NCBI GenBank assembly: GCA_027040375.1
Contig: JALUMJ010000004.1
Location: 1 to 16,967, forward strand
Source of the DNA: Campylobacteraceae bacterium
GTDB lineage: Bacteria; Campylobacterota; Campylobacteria; Campylobacterales; Sulfurospirillaceae
Length of the DNA stretch: 16,967 nt
Direction of reading: 5' to 3'
Under the pieces are notes generated by a model. It was not told the DNA's origin. It did not search any database and was given only the letters and a program-made list of their open reading frames with translations. This document shows positions 2,380 to 16,967 of this stretch, piece after piece. Position numbers and translations under genes: made by a program. Position 1 is the first letter of the stretch. Each line of letters opens with the position of its first letter.

Positions 2380-2907
2380 ATGAACCCAAAAACTCTAATC
2401 CACACCGCACTTTTTTGTGAGGCAAAACCTATCATAGAACACTTCAAGATGCAATGCTTGCAAACAAAACCATATAGGATTTATCATAAAGATGATTTAT
2501 GGCTAATAGTAAGTGGTATGGGAAGTAAAAAAGCCTTACATGTAGAGGATGTTTTTAGGCTCCATCATATAAAGCAGGCTATCAATATCGGCATAGCTGG
2601 TTGCAAAGATGAAGATATTGCTATAGGCTCTTTGTTTTGTACAAATCATCACATAGAAGATATTTGTTATGCCACGCTTTCTTGTGTTGATGAACCGACG
2701 GACGACAGGGAGCAACTATCTTCGATGCTTGTTGATATGGAGTCAAAAAGTTTCCTACATGTAAGCAAATTATACCTAAGAGATGAAAATATCTTTGTTT
2801 TCAAGGTAGTTTCAGATTATTTGGATAAAACTATACCTAGTAAAGAATTTGTAGAAAATTTGATAAAAAATACCATAAAAAGTTGGGAAAGATACATTGA
2901 AGCTTAA
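2380..2907 (+). CDS. Short nucleosidase-like protein (MTA/SAH nucleosidase / nucleoside phosphorylase superfamily)
   Basis: At 175 residues this is shorter than typical MTA/SAH nucleosidases (about 230), but the key positions appear kept. They are an early Glu in ALFCEAKPII (E14), a GMGSKKA turn (47-53), INIGIAGC (69-75), VDMES (118-122, the Glu that contacts ribose) and VSDYLD (144-149, the catalytic Asp, D146). The family cleaves the N-glycosidic bond of nucleosides, by hydrolysis or phosphorolysis, in the cytoplasm. Which substrate is used cannot be told. Later starts would lose E14, so the ATG at 2380 is preferred although it has no Shine-Dalgarno. The last 11 bp overlap the radical SAM gene, implying coupled translation. 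It is too divergent and short to call mtnN; a specialised role in the operon's own pathway is my inference. Confidence 0.75.
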   Translation: MNPKTLIHTALFCEAKPIIEHFKMQCLQTKPYRIYHKDDLWLIVSGMGSKKALHVEDVFRLHHIKQAINIGIAGCKDEDIAIGSLFCTNHHIEDICYATLSCVDEPTDDREQLSSMLVDMESKSFLHVSKLYLRDENIFVFKVVSDYLDKTIPSKEFVENLIKNTIKSWERYIEA

Positions 2908-4147
2908 TTTAAAAGAAAAATTTGATAAAAATATAAAAAATACATATTTTTTAAAACTAGATGCGAAAACGCAAGATTTTATAAAAGAAAAAGCTCTGTG
3001 TTTTAGATTTTCTTTTCAAGAGTTAAAGCAACTCATCGACATGAGTATAGATTTTGAAATGTGGAATGAAAATAGAATTTATGAGATTTGGAAAGATTTT
3101 GAAAATAAAAAACAAACGATAGCACATGTAAAAAAAATCTATGAAGAGTTAAAAAATAATCCAAAAAGCTATGCAAAGTTTGCAAAAGTTGCACCATATA
3201 ACCACTCAAGAAAGATAAGTTTCATCCAAAATAACAAAGAAGAGCTAGGGCTTGGAAAATGCCCTGTGGCATCTGCTAAAACGAGGTGTTGCAATCTTAT
3301 GACGCTTGATGCGGTTGAGAGTTGTGGGTTTGATTGTTCATACTGCTCTATCCAGTCTTTTTACAATGAAAATAAAATCGGCATAGACAATAACTTTGCC
3401 AAAAAATTAAAAAATCTTGTACTTGACCCAAACAAGGACTATCATATAGGAACAGGACAGAGTTCGGATTCGCTTCTTTGGGGAAATAAAGCTGGCATAA
3501 TGGATGCTTTATTTGATTTTGCAAAAAAAAATCCAAATGTCATACTTGAATTTAAAAGCAAATCTAACAATATAAAATATCTCTTAGAAAATGATGTTCC
3601 AAAAAATATACTTTGCACTTGGTCGATAAATACTCCAACAATCATAGAAAATGAAGAGCATTTAAGTGCCACTTTAGAACAAAGGCTAGAGAGTGCGAGA
3701 GCTTTGGCGGATAAAGGAGTCCTTGTTGGGTTTCATTTTCATCCTATCGTTGTTTATGAGGGATATCTAAATGAGTATCAAAGAACAATAGAAAAAATAA
3801 CCAATATGTTTGATGCTAGCGAAGTGGCGCTTGTATCATTTGGAACTTTAACATTTATTAAGCCCGTGATAAAGAAATTGAGAAATAGGGATTTTAAAAG
3901 CAAAATTCTGCAAATGCCTCTTATTGATGCTAGCGGAAAATTCTCCTATCCGCTAGAGACAAAAATTGAAATGTTTAAAAACGCCTATAATGCTTTTAAA
4001 CCTTGGCATAAAAAGGTCTATTTTTATATGTGCATGGAAGACCATAGCCTTTGGAAAAAAGTCTTTAGGTATGAGTATAAAAACAATGACGAAATGGAAA
4101 AAGATATGGTGCAATCATATAAGGATAAAGTAAAGGCACTTGTATGA
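2897..4147 (+). CDS. Spore photoproduct lyase-like radical SAM protein
   Basis: A 416-residue cytoplasmic radical SAM enzyme. CGFDCSYC (143-150) gives the CxxxCxxC cluster motif, the spacing seen in spore photoproduct lyase (SPL). Other SPL-like blocks are EFKSKSNN (218-225), WSINTP (242-247), FHFHPIVVYEGYLNEYQ (279-295) and YMCMEDHSLWKKVF (377-390). True SPL splits the thymine dimer of spore DNA, but this lineage does not form spores and the residues after the cluster are SIQ, not the YLQ I recall in SPL. Further cysteines precede the cluster (C122, C131, C132), and none lies between C150 and C240. The chemistry is therefore unassigned: dimer repair or modification of a nucleoside are both possible. 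The start is TTG inside the nucleosidase gene, with GGGAAAG at 2885-2891 upstream. The stop overlaps the next start as ATGA. Confidence 0.85.
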   Translation: MKLNLKEKFDKNIKNTYFLKLDAKTQDFIKEKALCFRFSFQELKQLIDMSIDFEMWNENRIYEIWKDFENKKQTIAHVKKIYEELKNNPKSYAKFAKVAPYNHSRKISFIQNNKEELGLGKCPVASAKTRCCNLMTLDAVESCGFDCSYCSIQSFYNENKIGIDNNFAKKLKNLVLDPNKDYHIGTGQSSDSLLWGNKAGIMDALFDFAKKNPNVILEFKSKSNNIKYLLENDVPKNILCTWSINTPTIIENEEHLSATLEQRLESARALADKGVLVGFHFHPIVVYEGYLNEYQRTIEKITNMFDASEVALVSFGTLTFIKPVIKKLRNRDFKSKILQMPLIDASGKFSYPLETKIEMFKNAYNAFKPWHKKVYFYMCMEDHSLWKKVFRYEYKNNDEMEKDMVQSYKDKVKALV

Positions 4148-4800
4148 AGACGGCACTAATAACTGGCTCAAGCAGTGGCATTGGTCATGCGATTTATGAA
4201 TCGTTGAAAGAAAATGGATATAAAGTTTATGGCATCGGCAGACATGATTGTGAGATAGAGTGCGATTTACAAGACACTAAAACCCTAGAAAGAAAGATAA
4301 AAGAGTTTTTAAAAAATGCCGATGTGGATTTACTCGTAAATTGTGCTGGACTTGGTATCTTTGCTCCTCACGAAGAGATATCTATTAAAAAAATCACTGA
4401 ACTCATAGATGTAAATCTAAAAGCTCCGATAATATTGACAAATCTTTGTTTAAGGAGTTTGAAAAAAACAAAAGGGCACATCATAAATATATCTTCTATT
4501 GAAGCTACTAAACACTCAAAATTTTCTGCCCTTTATAGTGCCACAAAGGGAGGACTTAGAGATTTTTCACTATGTCTTTTTGAAGAGTTAAGAAAATCAG
4601 GTGTCAGAGTTACAAATATAAATCCAGATATCACAAAAACTGCTTTTTTTGATGAATTAAATTTTGAACCAACAGACGACAAAGAGAGTTATATCGACCC
4701 AAAAGAGATAGCAAAAGAAGTTTTACATATAGTAAACTCACCTTTTGTCACAACAGATATAACTTTAAGAACTCAAAAATTTATAATAAATAGGAAATAA
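4144..4800 (+). CDS. Short-chain dehydrogenase/reductase (classical SDR)
   Basis: A 218-residue Rossmann-fold oxidoreductase of the cytoplasm. The cofactor motif is TGSSSGIG (7-14), followed by NCAG (66-69), a structural Asn at 91, the catalytic Ser in INISSIE (114-120) and YSATK (131-135), and an NPDITKT segment (160-166) in place of the usual NPGxxxT. The catalytic set is complete, so it should be active. R33 after the glycine motif hints at NADP(H), but this is weak. The substrate is unknown. It starts within the radical SAM gene's stop (ATGA overlap), so it very probably acts in the same pathway as the two upstream genes. Confidence 0.88.
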   Translation: MKTALITGSSSGIGHAIYESLKENGYKVYGIGRHDCEIECDLQDTKTLERKIKEFLKNADVDLLVNCAGLGIFAPHEEISIKKITELIDVNLKAPIILTNLCLRSLKKTKGHIINISSIEATKHSKFSALYSATKGGLRDFSLCLFEELRKSGVRVTNINPDITKTAFFDELNFEPTDDKESYIDPKEIAKEVLHIVNSPFVTTDITLRTQKFIINRK

Positions 4801-4801
4801 C

Positions 4802-6028
4802 ATGTATATAAAACATTTAATAATATCTTGCATTTTAGGCACATTTTTGTTTGCAAACCAATCGCTCATAAATATCATAAAACAAGCTAAACCATACTCA
4901 AAGATAGAACTTCCTGTCGGTGTATTTAAGGGTCCTATCTTGATAGATAAGCCTATAATTTTGATTGGGGCTGGTAAAAAAAGTATCATACAAAACGATG
5001 GTAATGGTACAGTAATCACTATAACTTGCCCTTTTGTTACTATCAGCAATATCACCATAAGAAACAGTGGGCACCAAAGATATAATTTCGATAGTGGTAT
5101 CAAAATAGAAAAAAGCTCACATGTAGTGATAAAAAACTGTAATTTTGAAAAGATATTATTTGGCATCATTTTACAAGATAGTTCTAACTCTAAGATATTG
5201 GATAACAATATAAAATCTTATGGCTATAAAGTTGTGGATAACAGAGGAGACGGCATACGCTTGTGGAATTCAAATCATAATCTGATTGCAGGCAACAAGC
5301 TTTTAAAAAGCAGGGATATGTCTTTGAACCGCTCAAGCAACAATATTATAAAAAACAATACGATAGAAAAAAGTAGATATGGCATACTTTTAAATATGTG
5401 CAAAAACATATCTGTATCTTCAAATATAATCACTTCAAATTATGCTGGGATATTCATAAAAGGCGGAAAAAATTTGCAAATAGATGGAAATAAAATCATT
5501 AAAACACACCTTAGTACAGGCACAGGTGTTGTGATAAAAGGCGGAAAAAATATTCATATAACCCACAATACTCTTACGGGTCATGCACAGGCAATATATA
5601 TAGCTTCAGGCACTGAAGAGATAGGAATGCAAAGATATATAGAACACAATACGATTTTAAATAACAATGTTGCGCTGCACTTTTCCACAACAATAAAAAA
5701 CAATACCATTAAGAACAATGACATAATTGGAAATCTAGAAGATGTCGTAAAGGATGTTCCAAAGAGTAAATATTATCAGAATGATATAAAATTTAACTAT
5801 TGGGATAAGTACATTGGATTTGATAAAAATAGCGATGACATAAGCGACATCCCCTACCAGGTGTTTATCTATGCAGATAAGCTTTGGCAATTTGATCATC
5901 ATCTAAAGTTTTTTTATGGAACACCACTTCTTAGCATAGTAGATTTTATAGAGAAATTAGCACCTTTTGATGAACCAACTCTTTTACTTGAAGACTCGCA
6001 ACCAAGAACGAAGCCTATAAGTTTCTAA
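4802..6028 (+). CDS. nosD: NosD-like periplasmic right-handed beta-helix protein
   Basis: A 408-residue exported protein. Residues 1-18 look like a Sec signal peptide (MYIKHLIISCILGTFLFA). Residues about 75-315 are asparagine-rich beta-helix turns with repeated motifs such as IKNNTIEKS, ITHNTLTG and EHNTILNNN. The C-terminal block, NYWDKYIGFDKNSDDISDIP (332-351) and the hydrophobic tail LLSIVDFIEKLAPF, is typical of NosD, the periplasmic protein needed to mature the copper centre of nitrous oxide reductase. No nosZ, nosF, nosY or nosL is present here, so it is an orphan copy and may serve another protein. AGGAA lies 6 nt before the ATG and the gap to the SDR stop is 1 bp, so it is co-transcribed. 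The symbol is a family label and its function here is uncertain. Confidence 0.75.
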   Translation: MYIKHLIISCILGTFLFANQSLINIIKQAKPYSKIELPVGVFKGPILIDKPIILIGAGKKSIIQNDGNGTVITITCPFVTISNITIRNSGHQRYNFDSGIKIEKSSHVVIKNCNFEKILFGIILQDSSNSKILDNNIKSYGYKVVDNRGDGIRLWNSNHNLIAGNKLLKSRDMSLNRSSNNIIKNNTIEKSRYGILLNMCKNISVSSNIITSNYAGIFIKGGKNLQIDGNKIIKTHLSTGTGVVIKGGKNIHITHNTLTGHAQAIYIASGTEEIGMQRYIEHNTILNNNVALHFSTTIKNNTIKNNDIIGNLEDVVKDVPKSKYYQNDIKFNYWDKYIGFDKNSDDISDIPYQVFIYADKLWQFDHHLKFFYGTPLLSIVDFIEKLAPFDEPTLLLEDSQPRTKPISF

Positions 6029-8258: not shown

Positions 8259-10073
8259 TTAGTATTCTAATTGTTCCACATCATAGAGTATATCATCCCA
8301 AGGATGTCTATACATTGGCATATTTAATCTTTTTTCATCCAAAATATGTCCGATAAAACCGATACATCTCCCTAGGATAAAAAATGCATTTAAAGCTCCA
8401 GCTTCTATAAATGTGCCTATCTCAGCATCATCATATCCAAGCTCTCTCCACATGTCAACCATCAATACACCGATAGTTCCATCAACATTTAAGATAAGAT
8501 TGTCTTTTTTGCTTGTTGTCTCTTTTTCGACTTCAAGTGCGTATTGTAAAATTGGGCTTGAAGGAAAATTTTCACTTACAAATTTTTTAAGACTACTGAT
8601 TCTCAAATCTGGATTTCTAACTGATTTAATTCTATGTCCGATACCAGGAATTGGGATCCCTTGGTCTTTCATGTATTTTAAAAACTCTTTTGGGCTTAAG
8701 TTATTATCAAATCCATATTTAAAATACTTAGCAGCATTGTCTATAGCTCCTCCAAACCTTGGTCCTATCGTCAAAAGTCCTGCTATGAGTGAACTTACAA
8801 CATCTTTTCCTGCTCTTGCCGTTACTTTTGCATTGTGTGCTCCACTAACTGCTGGTCCATGGTCTGCTACTGTTTTTAAAACTGTTTCTATAAAATCAAC
8901 TGCCCATCTTGGATATCTCTTCTTAAACCAAAGAATACTCATGACATCACCAAGAGTATATCCAGAATCTGGAGTTGCTACTTTTGAGATTGGAATACCA
9001 CAGTATGTTGCCTCTTCGCCTCTGTCATCACTGATAGTACAGATAAAGTTTCTAGCTTTTCTTATCTTTGAAATCTCTCTAACGCTTGGCTCTTCTATCT
9101 CTTTGATGACGCCTTTTGCTAGTAAATCTTCATAAACTTTATGTATGGTAGCAGGGATATCATTAAATGAATCTGGCACAAAAAATCCAGCTTCTGCCAT
9201 AGCAATATTTTTAGCTTCAGCAGTTTCTCTGTTTGCATTTGCACTAGCACCAGCATGACCAAATTGAACACCACTTTCAAAATGCTTAGCGATAGTTCCG
9301 ATACACCAAGCTATGATAGGCTTTTTAATCTTTCCACTTTTTACAGCTTCTATGACTTTATATTCTTCAGTTCCACCGACTTCGCCAAGTAAAATCATAT
9401 ATTTTACATCTGGGTTACTTTCCATTCTTAGAAGGTTATCTATAAAAACGGAGCCCACAAATCTATCTCCACCGATTGCTACACCCTCGGCTATACCATC
9501 AGCATTTAAAGAGATGATATTTGACATTTCATTGAACAAACCGCCACTTCTAGTAACAAGCCCACAACTGCCACATCTATTTAACTTGGAATTTATGATA
9601 TTTTCTATAGTTCCGCCTATATTTGCTATCTTAAAAGCTCCTGGAGCGATAGCGCCTACGGTTGCAGGTCCTATAACGGTAACGCCTTTATCTCTAGCAG
9701 CTTGATTCATGATTCTTGCTCTTCGCTCAGGTATGCCCTCAGCAGTCACCATGATGGTTTTAAATTGTCCATCAAGCTCTATTGCTTCCATGACGACATC
9801 ATACGCCGTTCTAAAAGAACCAAAGTTTAGTAAAACATCAGCTCCTGGAAATGCCTCCGCAGCTTCTGCTGTACTTCTATAAAGAGGTATCATAATTTCG
9901 GCATTACCAAAAAAGAATTTATCAAATTTTGCAGCACTTGTTGGTGCAACAATGGCTGCGATTGATGGTAATTTTCGCTCTATAGTATAGTCATAATCCA
10001 ACATTCTTTGAATCGCACTTCTATTGTTGTTCCAAAATATCGCTTGTGTATCTTTTGTAAATAACCTACTCAT
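8259..10073 (-). CDS. aclA: ATP-citrate lyase, large (alpha) subunit
   Basis: A 604-residue cytoplasmic subunit, about the length of AclA from other reductive TCA bacteria. With AclB it converts citrate, CoA and ATP to acetyl-CoA, oxaloacetate, ADP and phosphate. The N-terminal half is succinyl-CoA-synthetase-alpha-like, with CoA-binding segments and the phospho-histidine in FGHAGA (H273). The C-terminal half is a citrate-synthase-like domain with HGPAVSGAHNA (405-415), GIPIPGIGHRIKS (472-484) and NVDGTIG (529-535). All expected motifs are present. It starts 2 bp after the aclB stop, with a strong AGGAGGA (10083-10089) inside the last codons of aclB, which would couple equal synthesis of the subunits. 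Confidence 0.97.
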   Translation of the reverse strand: MSRLFTKDTQAIFWNNNRSAIQRMLDYDYTIERKLPSIAAIVAPTSAAKFDKFFFGNAEIMIPLYRSTAEAAEAFPGADVLLNFGSFRTAYDVVMEAIELDGQFKTIMVTAEGIPERRARIMNQAARDKGVTVIGPATVGAIAPGAFKIANIGGTIENIINSKLNRCGSCGLVTRSGGLFNEMSNIISLNADGIAEGVAIGGDRFVGSVFIDNLLRMESNPDVKYMILLGEVGGTEEYKVIEAVKSGKIKKPIIAWCIGTIAKHFESGVQFGHAGASANANRETAEAKNIAMAEAGFFVPDSFNDIPATIHKVYEDLLAKGVIKEIEEPSVREISKIRKARNFICTISDDRGEEATYCGIPISKVATPDSGYTLGDVMSILWFKKRYPRWAVDFIETVLKTVADHGPAVSGAHNAKVTARAGKDVVSSLIAGLLTIGPRFGGAIDNAAKYFKYGFDNNLSPKEFLKYMKDQGIPIPGIGHRIKSVRNPDLRISSLKKFVSENFPSSPILQYALEVEKETTSKKDNLILNVDGTIGVLMVDMWRELGYDDAEIGTFIEAGALNAFFILGRCIGFIGHILDEKRLNMPMYRHPWDDILYDVEQLEY

Positions 10074-10075
10074 GA

Positions 10076-11404
10076 TTATTTTTCCTCCTTAGCTAGAGAC
10101 ATTCTTACTATGTCAGTTACATGTGTTTCAGGTCCGTAAACTTCCATATATAGACCCAATCTATCTGCTGCTTCTTTGATGTCTTTTAAACCTTTTTTAT
10201 AGTTTGGCCCACCTCGTCTGACATAAATCTTCACACCTATTTCTTTAAATTTTTCAGCATACTCTTCCAAGGATTGGATAATGCCTGTAAATGTTTTTGC
10301 AACATCTGTAAAATTTGCGATTGCACCGCCGATTATAAGAATCTTATCTCTGCCTTTTGGGTCTTTAAATCTTGTCATAAGATCAAATATAGTATCTGCA
10401 TAAAATTTGGTTTCATCTGTGGTTGGTCCACCGCTATACTCTCCATAGTTTGCAAGTTCGCTTACATTGCCACTTAAGTCTGCTATAGTATCGGCATAAA
10501 CAACGCTAGCGCCACCGCCTGCTACCATAGTCCAAATTCTTCCCATCGGGTTTAAAATAGTAAGTTTTAGCGAAGCTCCACTCTTTGCATCGGCATCAGA
10601 TATGGCTTTTTCTTCAGATGATTGATCTTCCATGCCAAAAGCAGTTGGATACTCAATCTTGCCCCAATCTTCTAGCATAAGATACCCTGCAGTATCGTCT
10701 AGCCTTGCTACTAAGTCTAAGATTGCCATCTCGTTGTTTTCAAGCATAACAAGAGGGTTGATCTCAAGATATGCAAAGTTTAAGTCTCTATAAAACCTAA
10801 AGAAATCTATCGCAAAAGATATAAATGCTTCTTTTTTATCAGCAGGCAAATCAACTGGCGCATTTGCACGAACCAGATGGTCTATATTTGCATCTTGCAT
10901 ATTTATAGGAATCACAACTTCTGTTACTTTTTCTTCCCATCCATCTTCTACTTCCATGCCGCCTTCAGTTGACATGTAAAGAACATCGTCTTCACCGACA
11001 GTTGTAGCAGATATGTAATACTCTTGCTCTTCACTATGAGGAGTAAATGGCTCGATTATAAAGTGCGAAAGAGTTCCGTGCTGACCTGAGAGAAGAGTTG
11101 TAGGGTGAGATATCTGTTCATCTATCCAACTTGCAGCAACTTCCAAAGAAACATCGCCTGGTTTTTTATCTTTAAATAAAACCAGTCCGTTTTTCCCTCT
11201 TTTTCCAAAAAGCATGTCTGGCTTAGCTACGAGTGTTTCTTGCTTGAGCCACTCAAAACCATGTTCGTTTGCTTTTTTTCTTAATTCATCTCCACTACTA
11301 ACTAATACAGATTTAAACCCATATTGAAATCCACTAAAGTATTTTTCCCAATGCTTGGAAAAAATTGCTTTCCCATCATATTCACGAATCGCTCTTTGAG
11401 CCAT
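10076..11404 (-). CDS. aclB: ATP-citrate lyase, small (beta) subunit
   Basis: A 442-residue cytoplasmic partner of AclA. It has the ATP-grasp fold of succinyl-CoA synthetase beta: MAQRAIREYDGKAIFSKHW (1-19), KPDMLFGKRGKNGLVLF (61-77), the substrate segment IIEPFTPHSEEQEYYISATT (116-135), the Mg-site stretch YLEINPL (212-218) with DLVARLDD (230-237), and a C-terminal flavodoxin-like CoA ligase part with GGGASVVYAD (296-305) and GGPTTDE (325-331). The pair is the defining enzyme of the reductive TCA cycle, indicating autotrophic CO2 fixation. AAAGGA lies 6 nt before the ATG, and the 88-bp upstream gap holds a candidate promoter, so aclBA is probably its own unit. Confidence 0.97.
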   Translation of the reverse strand: MAQRAIREYDGKAIFSKHWEKYFSGFQYGFKSVLVSSGDELRKKANEHGFEWLKQETLVAKPDMLFGKRGKNGLVLFKDKKPGDVSLEVAASWIDEQISHPTTLLSGQHGTLSHFIIEPFTPHSEEQEYYISATTVGEDDVLYMSTEGGMEVEDGWEEKVTEVVIPINMQDANIDHLVRANAPVDLPADKKEAFISFAIDFFRFYRDLNFAYLEINPLVMLENNEMAILDLVARLDDTAGYLMLEDWGKIEYPTAFGMEDQSSEEKAISDADAKSGASLKLTILNPMGRIWTMVAGGGASVVYADTIADLSGNVSELANYGEYSGGPTTDETKFYADTIFDLMTRFKDPKGRDKILIIGGAIANFTDVAKTFTGIIQSLEEYAEKFKEIGVKIYVRRGGPNYKKGLKDIKEAADRLGLYMEVYGPETHVTDIVRMSLAKEEK

Positions 11405-15039: not shown

Positions 15040-15060
15040 GATTTTTTATATTAAAAAATC
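15040..15060. repeat. AT-only palindrome across the mutS2 stop codon
   Basis: GATTTTTTA (15040-15048) and TAAAAAATC (15052-15060) are perfect 9-bp inverted repeats with a 3-nt spacer. The palindrome overlaps the mutS2 TGA and abuts the downstream TATAAT. It may terminate mutS2 mRNA weakly, or be an operator for the next promoter. Confidence 0.45.
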
Positions 15061-16967
15061 ATAATTTTACCAAAGTTGCTCCATATCCCCCCATATTGAT
15101 TGGTGCGTCACAGTATGAAACCAAACTTGGATAAGTGGATAAAAATGTCTTAACTGCATATGCTAATTTTCCTGTTCCAATTCCGTGATAAACAAGCACC
15201 TCATCATAGCCATTTATCAAAGCATCTGAGAGAAATTTATCTAAGTTTTCTATGGCTTCCTCTGCTCGTTGTCCGTGCAAATCCAAAGTTACAGAACTTG
15301 TAGCACTTGGCTTTGTGATAGTGATTTTTCTTCTTTTTTTGGGAGGAATTCCACTTTTTTTAAGCGTATTCAATGGCACTCTAAGTGTAATTCCCTCACA
15401 CTCTATGGAAGCTATATCTTTTTTTATGCTTTTAATTTGTCCTTTTGAGCTTCTATATTTTACATAATCTCCCACTGTCAAATTTTCACTTTTTTGAACT
15501 ATATTTATCTTTTTTGCTTTTACCTTAAACTCATGTGCTAAGTTCAAAGCCCTATGCCCTTCTTTTGAATCTTTAGATTTTATGGCAACTTTTGCTTCTT
15601 CTATGGCTTTGTTAAAGTTCTTTTGCATATTTAGAGTTTGTCGTTCAAACTCAAGTTTCGACAACTCTTGCTCATCTTTTAGAGCTATTTTTAATTTTCT
15701 TGCCTCTTCTAGCTTTTCTTCGAGTAGTTTTGATTGTTTTTTCATCTCTAACTCTAAATCTATATTCTTTTGAATTAAATCATTTAAATTTTCTTTATCC
15801 TCACCATAAACGATTCTAGCTTCTTTTATGATAGGTGCTGGAATTTTATATCTAAGGGCTGTCTCAAAAGCATAACTTTTTCCAATAGTACCGTTTAAAA
15901 ATTCATAAGTAGGTTGTTGATTTTTTTCATCATAAATTGCAGCTAAGAGTTGGACTTGCTCATTTGTAGCAAGTAGCGAAGCTAGTCTTTTGTGATGGGT
16001 TGTGATGATTATCTTTATATCTTTTTGGATTAGTTTTTCTACTATTACTTTAAACAAGCTTGCAGCCTCATCAGAGTCAGTTCCAAGTTCTATCTCGTCG
16101 ATGCCTACCAAGGTTGATTTTTTAGAAAAAAGTTTACTAAATTCGTGCATTCTGCCTGCAAAAGTAGATATGTCATTTTTCACACTCTGCGGGTCATCTA
16201 AGATAGCTACTATATCTTTAAAAGAGCCTATTTTTGTGTGAGTTGAGTCTATAGACATCGGGAGCAGATATTTCGCTAAAAAAGCAGCACTTAGAAGTGA
16301 CTTTAAAAACATAGTTTTTCCACCAGCATTTACACCCGTTATCATAAGCACATGTTTGCTAAAATCAACACTTATGGGCTTTGGGCTACCAAGGGCTGGA
16401 TGTGAAAACTTAGATATTTTTATATCATGGCTACTATTGGCTAAAACAAATTCTAGATTTGAATTTTTAGCAAATGTTACTCTTGCAAAATAAGCATCAA
16501 ATTTATCAAATTCTCTATTTACAAATGTCAAAAAATGAACAAACTTTGAAAACTTCGCTGATATTTCTTTTGCATATTTATATATCAATTCCTCTTTTTT
16601 ATCAAGCAAACCGCTCTCTTTTGATTTTAAAGAAGAGATTGAATCTGGGAATATATAGAAAAATCCGCCACTACTTCTACCAACAACGCTTCCTTTTATG
16701 ACATGATTAAAACCACCTCTTAAAAGCAGGGCTTCTTGGTTGTTAATATAATGCACTTGCCTGTCAACTAGATAATTTGAAAGTTTTGAGTTCGACATGA
16801 GACGCCTAAGAGCGGTGCTGGTTTCTTCTTTTATCTTGCTAAGTGCATAAGAGATAGCTCCGAACTGCTCATCTATAGTGCTTTTTAGCTCGCCTTTTTC
16901 ATCAAAGTATTTGCAAATCTCTTTTATCTCATCAGGAATTTCTATCTTTTGCATCCACAAACTAAGA
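15059..16967 (-). CDS. mutS2: MutS2 endonuclease/ATPase, 5' end outside the window
   Basis: The reading frame is open through the right edge, so the first ~100 or more residues are missing. Counting from the TTG at 16960, the visible part has the tail of the MutS core and clamp helices, the ATPase with Walker A GVNAGGKT (209-216) and Walker B STLVGIDEIELGTD (282-295), a charged coiled coil (about 390-470), a KOW-like segment VGDYVKYRSSKGQI (496-509), and a C-terminal Smr nuclease domain with LDLHG (559-563) and HGIGTGKL (592-599). MutS2 acts on branched DNA to limit recombination and, in some bacteria, rescues collided ribosomes. Walker A differs from the common GPNTGGKT. It is the most upstream gene seen of the minus-strand block; murC usually lies close by in this class. 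Confidence 0.93.
   Translation of the reverse strand, partial: LSLWMQKIEIPDEIKEICKYFDEKGELKSTIDEQFGAISYALSKIKEETSTALRRLMSNSKLSNYLVDRQVHYINNQEALLLRGGFNHVIKGSVVGRSSGGFFYIFPDSISSLKSKESGLLDKKEELIYKYAKEISAKFSKFVHFLTFVNREFDKFDAYFARVTFAKNSNLEFVLANSSHDIKISKFSHPALGSPKPISVDFSKHVLMITGVNAGGKTMFLKSLLSAAFLAKYLLPMSIDSTHTKIGSFKDIVAILDDPQSVKNDISTFAGRMHEFSKLFSKKSTLVGIDEIELGTDSDEAASLFKVIVEKLIQKDIKIIITTHHKRLASLLATNEQVQLLAAIYDEKNQQPTYEFLNGTIGKSYAFETALRYKIPAPIIKEARIVYGEDKENLNDLIQKNIDLELEMKKQSKLLEEKLEEARKLKIALKDEQELSKLEFERQTLNMQKNFNKAIEEAKVAIKSKDSKEGHRALNLAHEFKVKAKKINIVQKSENLTVGDYVKYRSSKGQIKSIKKDIASIECEGITLRVPLNTLKKSGIPPKKRRKITITKPSATSSVTLDLHGQRAEEAIENLDKFLSDALINGYDEVLVYHGIGTGKLAYAVKTFLSTYPSLVSYCDAPINMGGYGATLVKL

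Follow-up and report, generated by a model that had tools for sequence, protein, structure and literature searches.

A conserved module of a nucleosidase, a radical SAM enzyme and a dehydrogenase in Campylobacterota, with a radical SAM enzyme that is probably misannotated as spore photoproduct lyase

In the futalosine pathway of menaquinone synthesis, the radical S-adenosylmethionine (SAM) enzyme MqnE is followed by a futalosine/methylthioadenosine (MTA) nucleosidase. Adenosylation and adenine removal also follow one another in C35 hopanoid synthesis, as described for HpnH, which adds the deoxyadenosyl radical to diploptene, and HpnG, a putative phosphorylase that removes the adenine; ribosylhopane is then converted to bacteriohopanetetrol by an enzyme described in the same source as not yet established (PMC12583986). 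The genome paper of Nautilia profundicola treats a homologue of spore photoproduct lyase (SPL) as a DNA-repair gene that three of the four vent species share and that was not found in members of the group from outside vents (PMC2628731). The stretch of DNA analysed here (the window; 16,967 nucleotides, contig JALUMJ010000004.1 of a Campylobacteraceae bacterium) carries three neighbouring open reading frames (ORFs), all on the plus strand, for a compact nucleosidase (NUC), an SPL-fold radical SAM enzyme (rSAM) and a short-chain dehydrogenase/reductase (SDR). These three genes form, with near certainty, a real conserved module. No description of a NUC-rSAM-SDR module was found by text search of the open-licence literature, nor any paper in it pairing 'spore photoproduct lyase' with 'Campylobacterota', and the module is apparently undescribed.

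The coordinates of the three ORFs and the two overlaps joining them, proposed in an earlier note on this DNA, are all present in the sequence (Table 1). Each product exceeds the cut-off of its Pfam family: PF01048 for NUC (30.4 bits, cut-off 25.1), PF20903 (SPL) for rSAM (47.6 bits, cut-off 27) and PF00106 for SDR (128.4 bits, cut-off 26.6). The source assembly comprises 1.67 Mb in 224 contigs (genome 91% complete), and the closest named relative among the best 120 of 4045 matches of a protein search is Sulfurospirillum sp. 1612 (79% identity).

Co-occurrence was assessed in 397 Campylobacterota genomes, at thresholds of our own choice (E-values of 1e-5 for rSAM searched with the window protein and 1e-8 with the Y-type profile, 1e-10 for NUC and 1e-50 for SDR). 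The window rSAM found relatives in 93 genomes, 80 of them close (Q-type) and 13 distant (22–26% identity over partial length); a profile of the distant proteins (Y-type) raised the total to 96, with 16 genomes being Y-type at E <1e-140. The NUC profile matched 105 genomes (E ≤1e-10) and the SDR profile 79 (E ≤1e-50). NUC accompanies rSAM in 95 of 96 genomes; in the remaining one, G358, an 86-residue piece of NUC lies next to the SDR where a contig ends. Of the SDR genomes, 77 of 79 have rSAM (all except G163 and G210), and SDR is found in 77 of the 96 rSAM genomes. Fisher tests over the 397 genomes with the first rSAM list (93) gave p ~1e-74 for NUC and p = 5e-58 for SDR, values that are not true probabilities because the genomes are related. 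A better guide is genus g2, in which all three genes occur in three of 15 genomes and none of them in the other 12 (family and genus codes, f and g, are those of the search tool; L and G codes label loci and genomes). As rSAM occurs in about a quarter of the genomes, it does not belong to a core pathway of the phylum.

Gene order was counted over 123 loci, after loci with identical rSAM C-termini had been dropped from a set of 132. NUC lies immediately upstream of rSAM, on the same strand, in 37 of the 111 Q-type loci, and SDR immediately downstream in 14; for the 12 Y-type loci, NUC is immediately upstream in six and SDR immediately downstream in six. When starts are set to give the longest ORFs, the overlap of NUC with rSAM is 4–61 bases in 35 of the 37 adjacent Q-type pairs, and that of rSAM with SDR is 4 bases in nine of 14. 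According to ORF calls, 14 of 40 Q-type rSAM neighbourhoods have no NUC (seven in f8, four in f9 and one each in f10, f4 and f3); the NUC profile places a NUC beside rSAM in the f3 case and elsewhere in the genome in the other 13. The ORF filter overlooked some real genes, such as the NUC of L068, which the profile places beside rSAM, and L188 yielded nothing. SDR follows NUC directly in seven (L169, L170, L171, L182, L183, L184 and L186) of the 22 separate NUC loci inspected (L169–L190). The best 80 of 527 confirmed loci from a contig search show the Q-type family in Malaciobacter halophilus (DSM 18005), Sulfurimonas indica NW8N and Arcobacter sp. CECT 8985.

Two observations weigh against a single unit. 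NUC occurs without a detected rSAM in 10 genomes, nine from f7 and the tenth being G210, in which NUC is cut by a contig end; and 19 of the 96 genomes with rSAM lack an SDR match at the threshold of 1e-50. The earlier note, which had treated the three genes as one unit, would have given up this idea had they rarely been neighbours elsewhere, or had the radical SAM gene been sporadic and unlinked. The co-occurrence and frequent linkage of the genes in Campylobacterota do not bear out this refutation, although many genomes keep the genes apart.

NUC and rSAM are fused in Fusobacterium vincentii (NZ_CP084075.1), in which a 623-residue ORF consists of NUC (residues 3–170, E 3e-26) and a Y-type rSAM (296–615, E 6e-109), and is followed by an SDR ORF (E 2e-74), a neighbour known from this one record. 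Both halves retain, on inspection, the DME, SD and CX3CX2C motifs. The best 120 of 693 matches of the fusion are all 623 residues long; those with names come from F. polymorphum, F. animalis, F. nucleatum and F. watanabei and bear the label 'spore photoproduct lyase (family protein)'. The module thus extends beyond Campylobacterota, the one phylum covered by the systematic search, and NUC can function together with rSAM as a single unit. The plasmid records searched gave this one match, and the viral contigs searched gave none. The 2.1-Mb record NZ_CP084075.1 is listed as a plasmid but, to judge by its size, is probably the chromosome.

The rSAM resembles SPL in its fold (PF20903) and in its CX3CX2C cluster motif (C143/C147/C150), which is conserved in 121 of 121 Q-type proteins. 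However, the position of the SPL donor cysteine, C141 in Bacillus (Bs) and C140 in Geobacillus (Gt), is occupied by glutamine (Gln188) in all 121 Q-type proteins and by tyrosine in all 11 Y-type proteins, in a register taken from alignments with SPL chains that included the C140S and C140A mutants. The column of Tyr98(Gt)/Tyr99(Bs) contains Ser (115), Thr (3) or Ala (3) in the 121 Q-type proteins, that of the window among them, so that this tyrosine is gone, and Tyr (9) or Phe (2) in the 11 Y-type proteins. The donor of clostridial SPL is C74 (C. acetobutylicum); the invariant C122 of the Q-type lies a single column from it when the two are aligned indirectly, C74(Ca) being taken to correspond to S76(Gt) on the strength of the title of an S76C mutant, and the Y-type proteins of L151–L156 have no cysteine in this column. 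Scores against the curated SPL model TIGR04070 (cut-off 400 bits) are far too low: 58.6 for the window rSAM, 87.7 for the Y-type L151 and 69.7 for the Fusobacterium fusion. The rSAM also differs from SPL in having a nucleosidase as a partner or fused to it. The Q-type proteins have a helical N-terminal extension of about 100 residues and four further invariant cysteines (C122, C131, C132 and C379) without counterpart in the Y-type, which could possibly hold an auxiliary cluster. The organisms in which the module was seen here are not known to form spores.

The role proposed for the Nautilia profundicola homologue, the reversal of a thymine-type photoproduct in DNA, therefore seems doubtful for the rSAM, given the replacement of the Bacillus-type donor cysteine by Gln or Tyr, and the hint of SPL-like repair in the earlier note is not supported, this residue being replaced in both types. 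With the low TIGR04070 scores, and no obvious role left for NUC or SDR, we consider DNA repair very improbable. The near-strict partnership with NUC, the fusion and the missing donor residues indicate that the SPL annotation is probably wrong.

The catalytic residues of all three enzymes, considered intact in the earlier note, are so in the families as well: E14, E121 and D146 are invariant in 19 of 19 aligned NUCs, C143/C147/C150 in 20 of 20 rSAMs first aligned, and Y131 and K135 in 18 of 18 SDRs, which also share G8, G12-I13-G14 and S118 and thus have the classical SDR motifs. In NUC, D119-M120-E121 and S145-D146 are conserved. Structure comparison superimposes 171–173 of its 175 residues on Helicobacter pylori MTA nucleosidase (MTAN) at 2.1–2.2 Å and 165–168 residues on Chlamydia CT263 at 2.1–2.3 Å. 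NUC therefore shares the whole fold of MtnN/Pfs and CT263, with equivalents of Glu12/Glu174/Asp197, but is about 50 residues shorter than the solved MTANs, the gap lying before the DME motif, and has Lys142 at the position of an MTAN arginine. The MTAN model TIGR01704 (cut-off 73.8 bits) is not among the five families listed for NUC at E ≤0.1; NUC scores 24 bits against the futalosine hydrolase model TIGR03664 (cut-off 124.7; best relative tried, 41.7) and 20.1 against the HpnG model TIGR03468 (cut-off 187.1). The possibility that NUC is the general MTAN of these bacteria was rejected, as one other, canonical MTAN above the curated cut-off is encoded in 15 of the 15 rSAM+NUC genomes tested; in the fragmented genome of the window, only a C-terminal MTAN piece was found, below the cut-off.

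NUC could be a dedicated 5'-deoxyadenosine nucleosidase that clears the co-product of rSAM, with rSAM and SDR acting in sequence on an unrelated substrate. 5'-Deoxyadenosine is described as an inhibitor of radical SAM enzymes that is cleaved by the promiscuous MtnN (PMC8102628), and the NUC–rSAM fusion would fit such housekeeping. In SPL, the C141A and Y99F mutants are reported to consume roughly one SAM for each repair (PMC3742179), and neither residue is present in the Q-type rSAM. However, the 15 rSAM+NUC genomes tested all encode a canonical MTAN already. A dedicated nucleosidase is not known for most other radical SAM enzymes, which also counts against this explanation, and we regard it as unlikely.

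Alternatively, along the lines of the salvage or synthesis suggested in the earlier note, rSAM might alter a purine nucleoside or a base that is already modified, after which NUC would release the base and SDR reduce or oxidize the product. The MTAN fold of NUC and its intact catalytic residues are consistent with a nucleoside substrate, and SPL itself acts on thymines in DNA (PMC3742179). Against this, no further gene family recurs across lineages in the clustered neighbourhoods. The families closest to NUC use 5'-modified adenosines or futalosine, which also counts against it. The chance that this pathway is the correct one appears small.

The chemistry that we favour, tentatively and at somewhat less than an even chance, is adenosylation by rSAM followed by the action of NUC and then of SDR; it is based on analogy with the two pathways described at the outset. 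The SPL-fold rSAM would cleave SAM, and addition of the 5'-deoxyadenosyl radical to an acceptor would yield an adenosylated intermediate. A tethered or adjacent NUC would then hydrolyse adenine off this intermediate, and SDR would reduce (or, less likely, oxidize) either the five-carbon sugar thereby exposed or the acceptor itself. The earlier note suggested that an unusual nucleoside is salvaged, repaired or synthesized; a nucleoside-type intermediate is likely, and the suggestion is narrowed here to a proposed order of rSAM, nucleosidase and reductase. The predicted order of radical adenosylation, adenine removal by an enzyme of the purine nucleoside phosphorylase family and reduction resembles that of HpnH and HpnG, but the rSAM matches include no HpnH model and NUC is far below the HpnG cut-off. 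The succession of a radical SAM enzyme and an MTAN-fold nucleosidase is likewise shared with the MqnE pathway, although MqnE belongs to another radical SAM subfamily. HpnH, HpnG and QueL are absent among the structure-search matches listed, which excludes nothing.

A recurrent fourth gene was sought and rejected, as clustering of the neighbours revealed lineage-specific company only: in f7, a VTT-domain protein and, upstream, trmD-rplS-like genes; in several f8 genomes, FliD/FliS-like genes; in f9, a c226-family gene that follows NUC; and in genus g1, NosD. As the neighbours of the module vary by lineage, no acceptor can be named. In f8, SDR, with or without NUC and rSAM, is repeatedly beside or near fliD/fliS-like genes (L151, L152, L153, L154, L170, L186, L193 and L199; called by profile in L151 and by similarity or by eye in the remaining loci). 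Five f7 loci (L165–L167, L197 and L198) have NUC directly followed by a VTT-domain (DedA-like) membrane protein, with no rSAM or SDR nearby, and in other f7 loci the VTT gene lies upstream of SDR.

The two diverged types of rSAM have the same partners, NUC and SDR. Family f8 contains both, with the Y-type in genera g36 and g39 and the Q-type in g12 and g13; relatives of the Y-linked NUCs carry the name Sulfuricurvum (best 120 of 246 matches of a protein search). A single f8 rSAM clade was rejected by the approximately unbiased (AU) test (p-AU 0.0013). The SDRs of f8, by contrast, form one branch (support 94/91, not starred), and a clade of Y-linked SDRs was rejected (p-AU 0.005); these p-values are weakened by the naming of the groups after the first trees had been seen. 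In the NUC tree, the f8 clade is weakly supported (0.46); a quick NUC tree placed the Y-linked NUCs on one branch with support 0, and constraining the f8 NUCs together improved the likelihood by 21. The NUC tree does not contradict a replacement of rSAM, but has little power; the SDR tree settles the matter. The trees covered labelled loci with NUC of at least 55 bits, SDR of at least 190 bits and ORFs of at least 110 residues (L161–L163 and L187–L190 are among the unlabelled loci excluded). The simplest reading of these trees is that rSAM was swapped while its partners stayed, and as the partners were apparently kept, the Q- and Y-types probably do the same job.

The Y-linked NUCs (L151–L164) have a C-terminal extension of about 70–90 residues that weakly resembles the N-terminal extension of the Q-type rSAMs (residues 1–110 in the window). 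When all 2186 ORFs were ranked by each extension profile, three related Q-type rSAMs came 1, 3 and 5, and two Y-linked NUCs 1 and 5. Comparison by hhalign gave P 0.0011 with small alignments, a score reached by none of 120 shuffles and none of 149 control windows; when larger alignments were used, P was 0.012, and 1 of 150 and 3 of 149, respectively, reached the score. With one profile, the Fusobacterium linker scored above all 100 shuffles; with the three remaining profiles, 9, 22 and 17 of 100 shuffles scored as high. These sequence comparisons are suggestive only of one small helical domain that may have changed partner between NUC and rSAM, which is not claimed here.

Table 1. Coordinates of the module and of other features in the window
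Feature	Position	Strand	Basis
NUC: compact MTA-nucleosidase-fold enzyme, 175 aa	2380-2907	+	ORF call, Pfam, alignment, structure comparison
rSAM: Q-type SPL-fold radical SAM enzyme, 416 aa, TTG start	2897-4147	+	ORF call, Pfam, alignment
SDR: classical short-chain dehydrogenase, module-specific relative, 218 aa	4144-4800	+	ORF call, Pfam, alignment
NUC/rSAM reading-frame overlap, 11 bp	2897-2907	+	read in sequence
ATGA overlap, rSAM stop/SDR start	4144-4147	+	read in sequence
NosD-like gene	4802-6028	+	TIGR04247, 316.6 bits (cut-off 300); begins 1 bp past SDR stop
Two citryl-CoA lyase/succinate-CoA ligase-like ORFs	8259-11404	-	family-profile scores
MutS2	15059-16960	-	521 bits; model matched only from position 120; end 7 bases from window edge

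The NosD-like gene next to the module is perhaps an orphan, and no NosZ was found at the TIGR04246 cut-off in the 91%-complete genome of the window (best score 20 bits). A NosD-like gene also follows SDR in L073 and in L032, which is on the same contig as L075. The two citryl-CoA lyase/succinate-CoA ligase-like ORFs are probably subunits of ATP citrate lyase, an enzyme of the reverse tricarboxylic acid cycle, and the N-terminal part of MutS2 probably lies outside the window.

The module is centred on a widely kept enzyme labelled as a spore DNA-repair lyase in bacteria that make no spores, several Fusobacterium species included. It is possible, though less likely than not, that Campylobacterota and Fusobacterium share an unrecognized third pathway of adenosylation by a radical SAM enzyme, here one with the SPL fold, in which a fused or tethered rSAM and nucleosidase would add a ribose-derived five-carbon unit to a metabolite or macromolecule and SDR would reduce this unit. 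If this is true, hundreds of proteins that currently carry the name 'spore photoproduct lyase' would be members of this pathway, and radical SAM chemistry would gain a new scaffold and a new class of product. The three enzymes constitute a defined system, the product of which can be sought directly.
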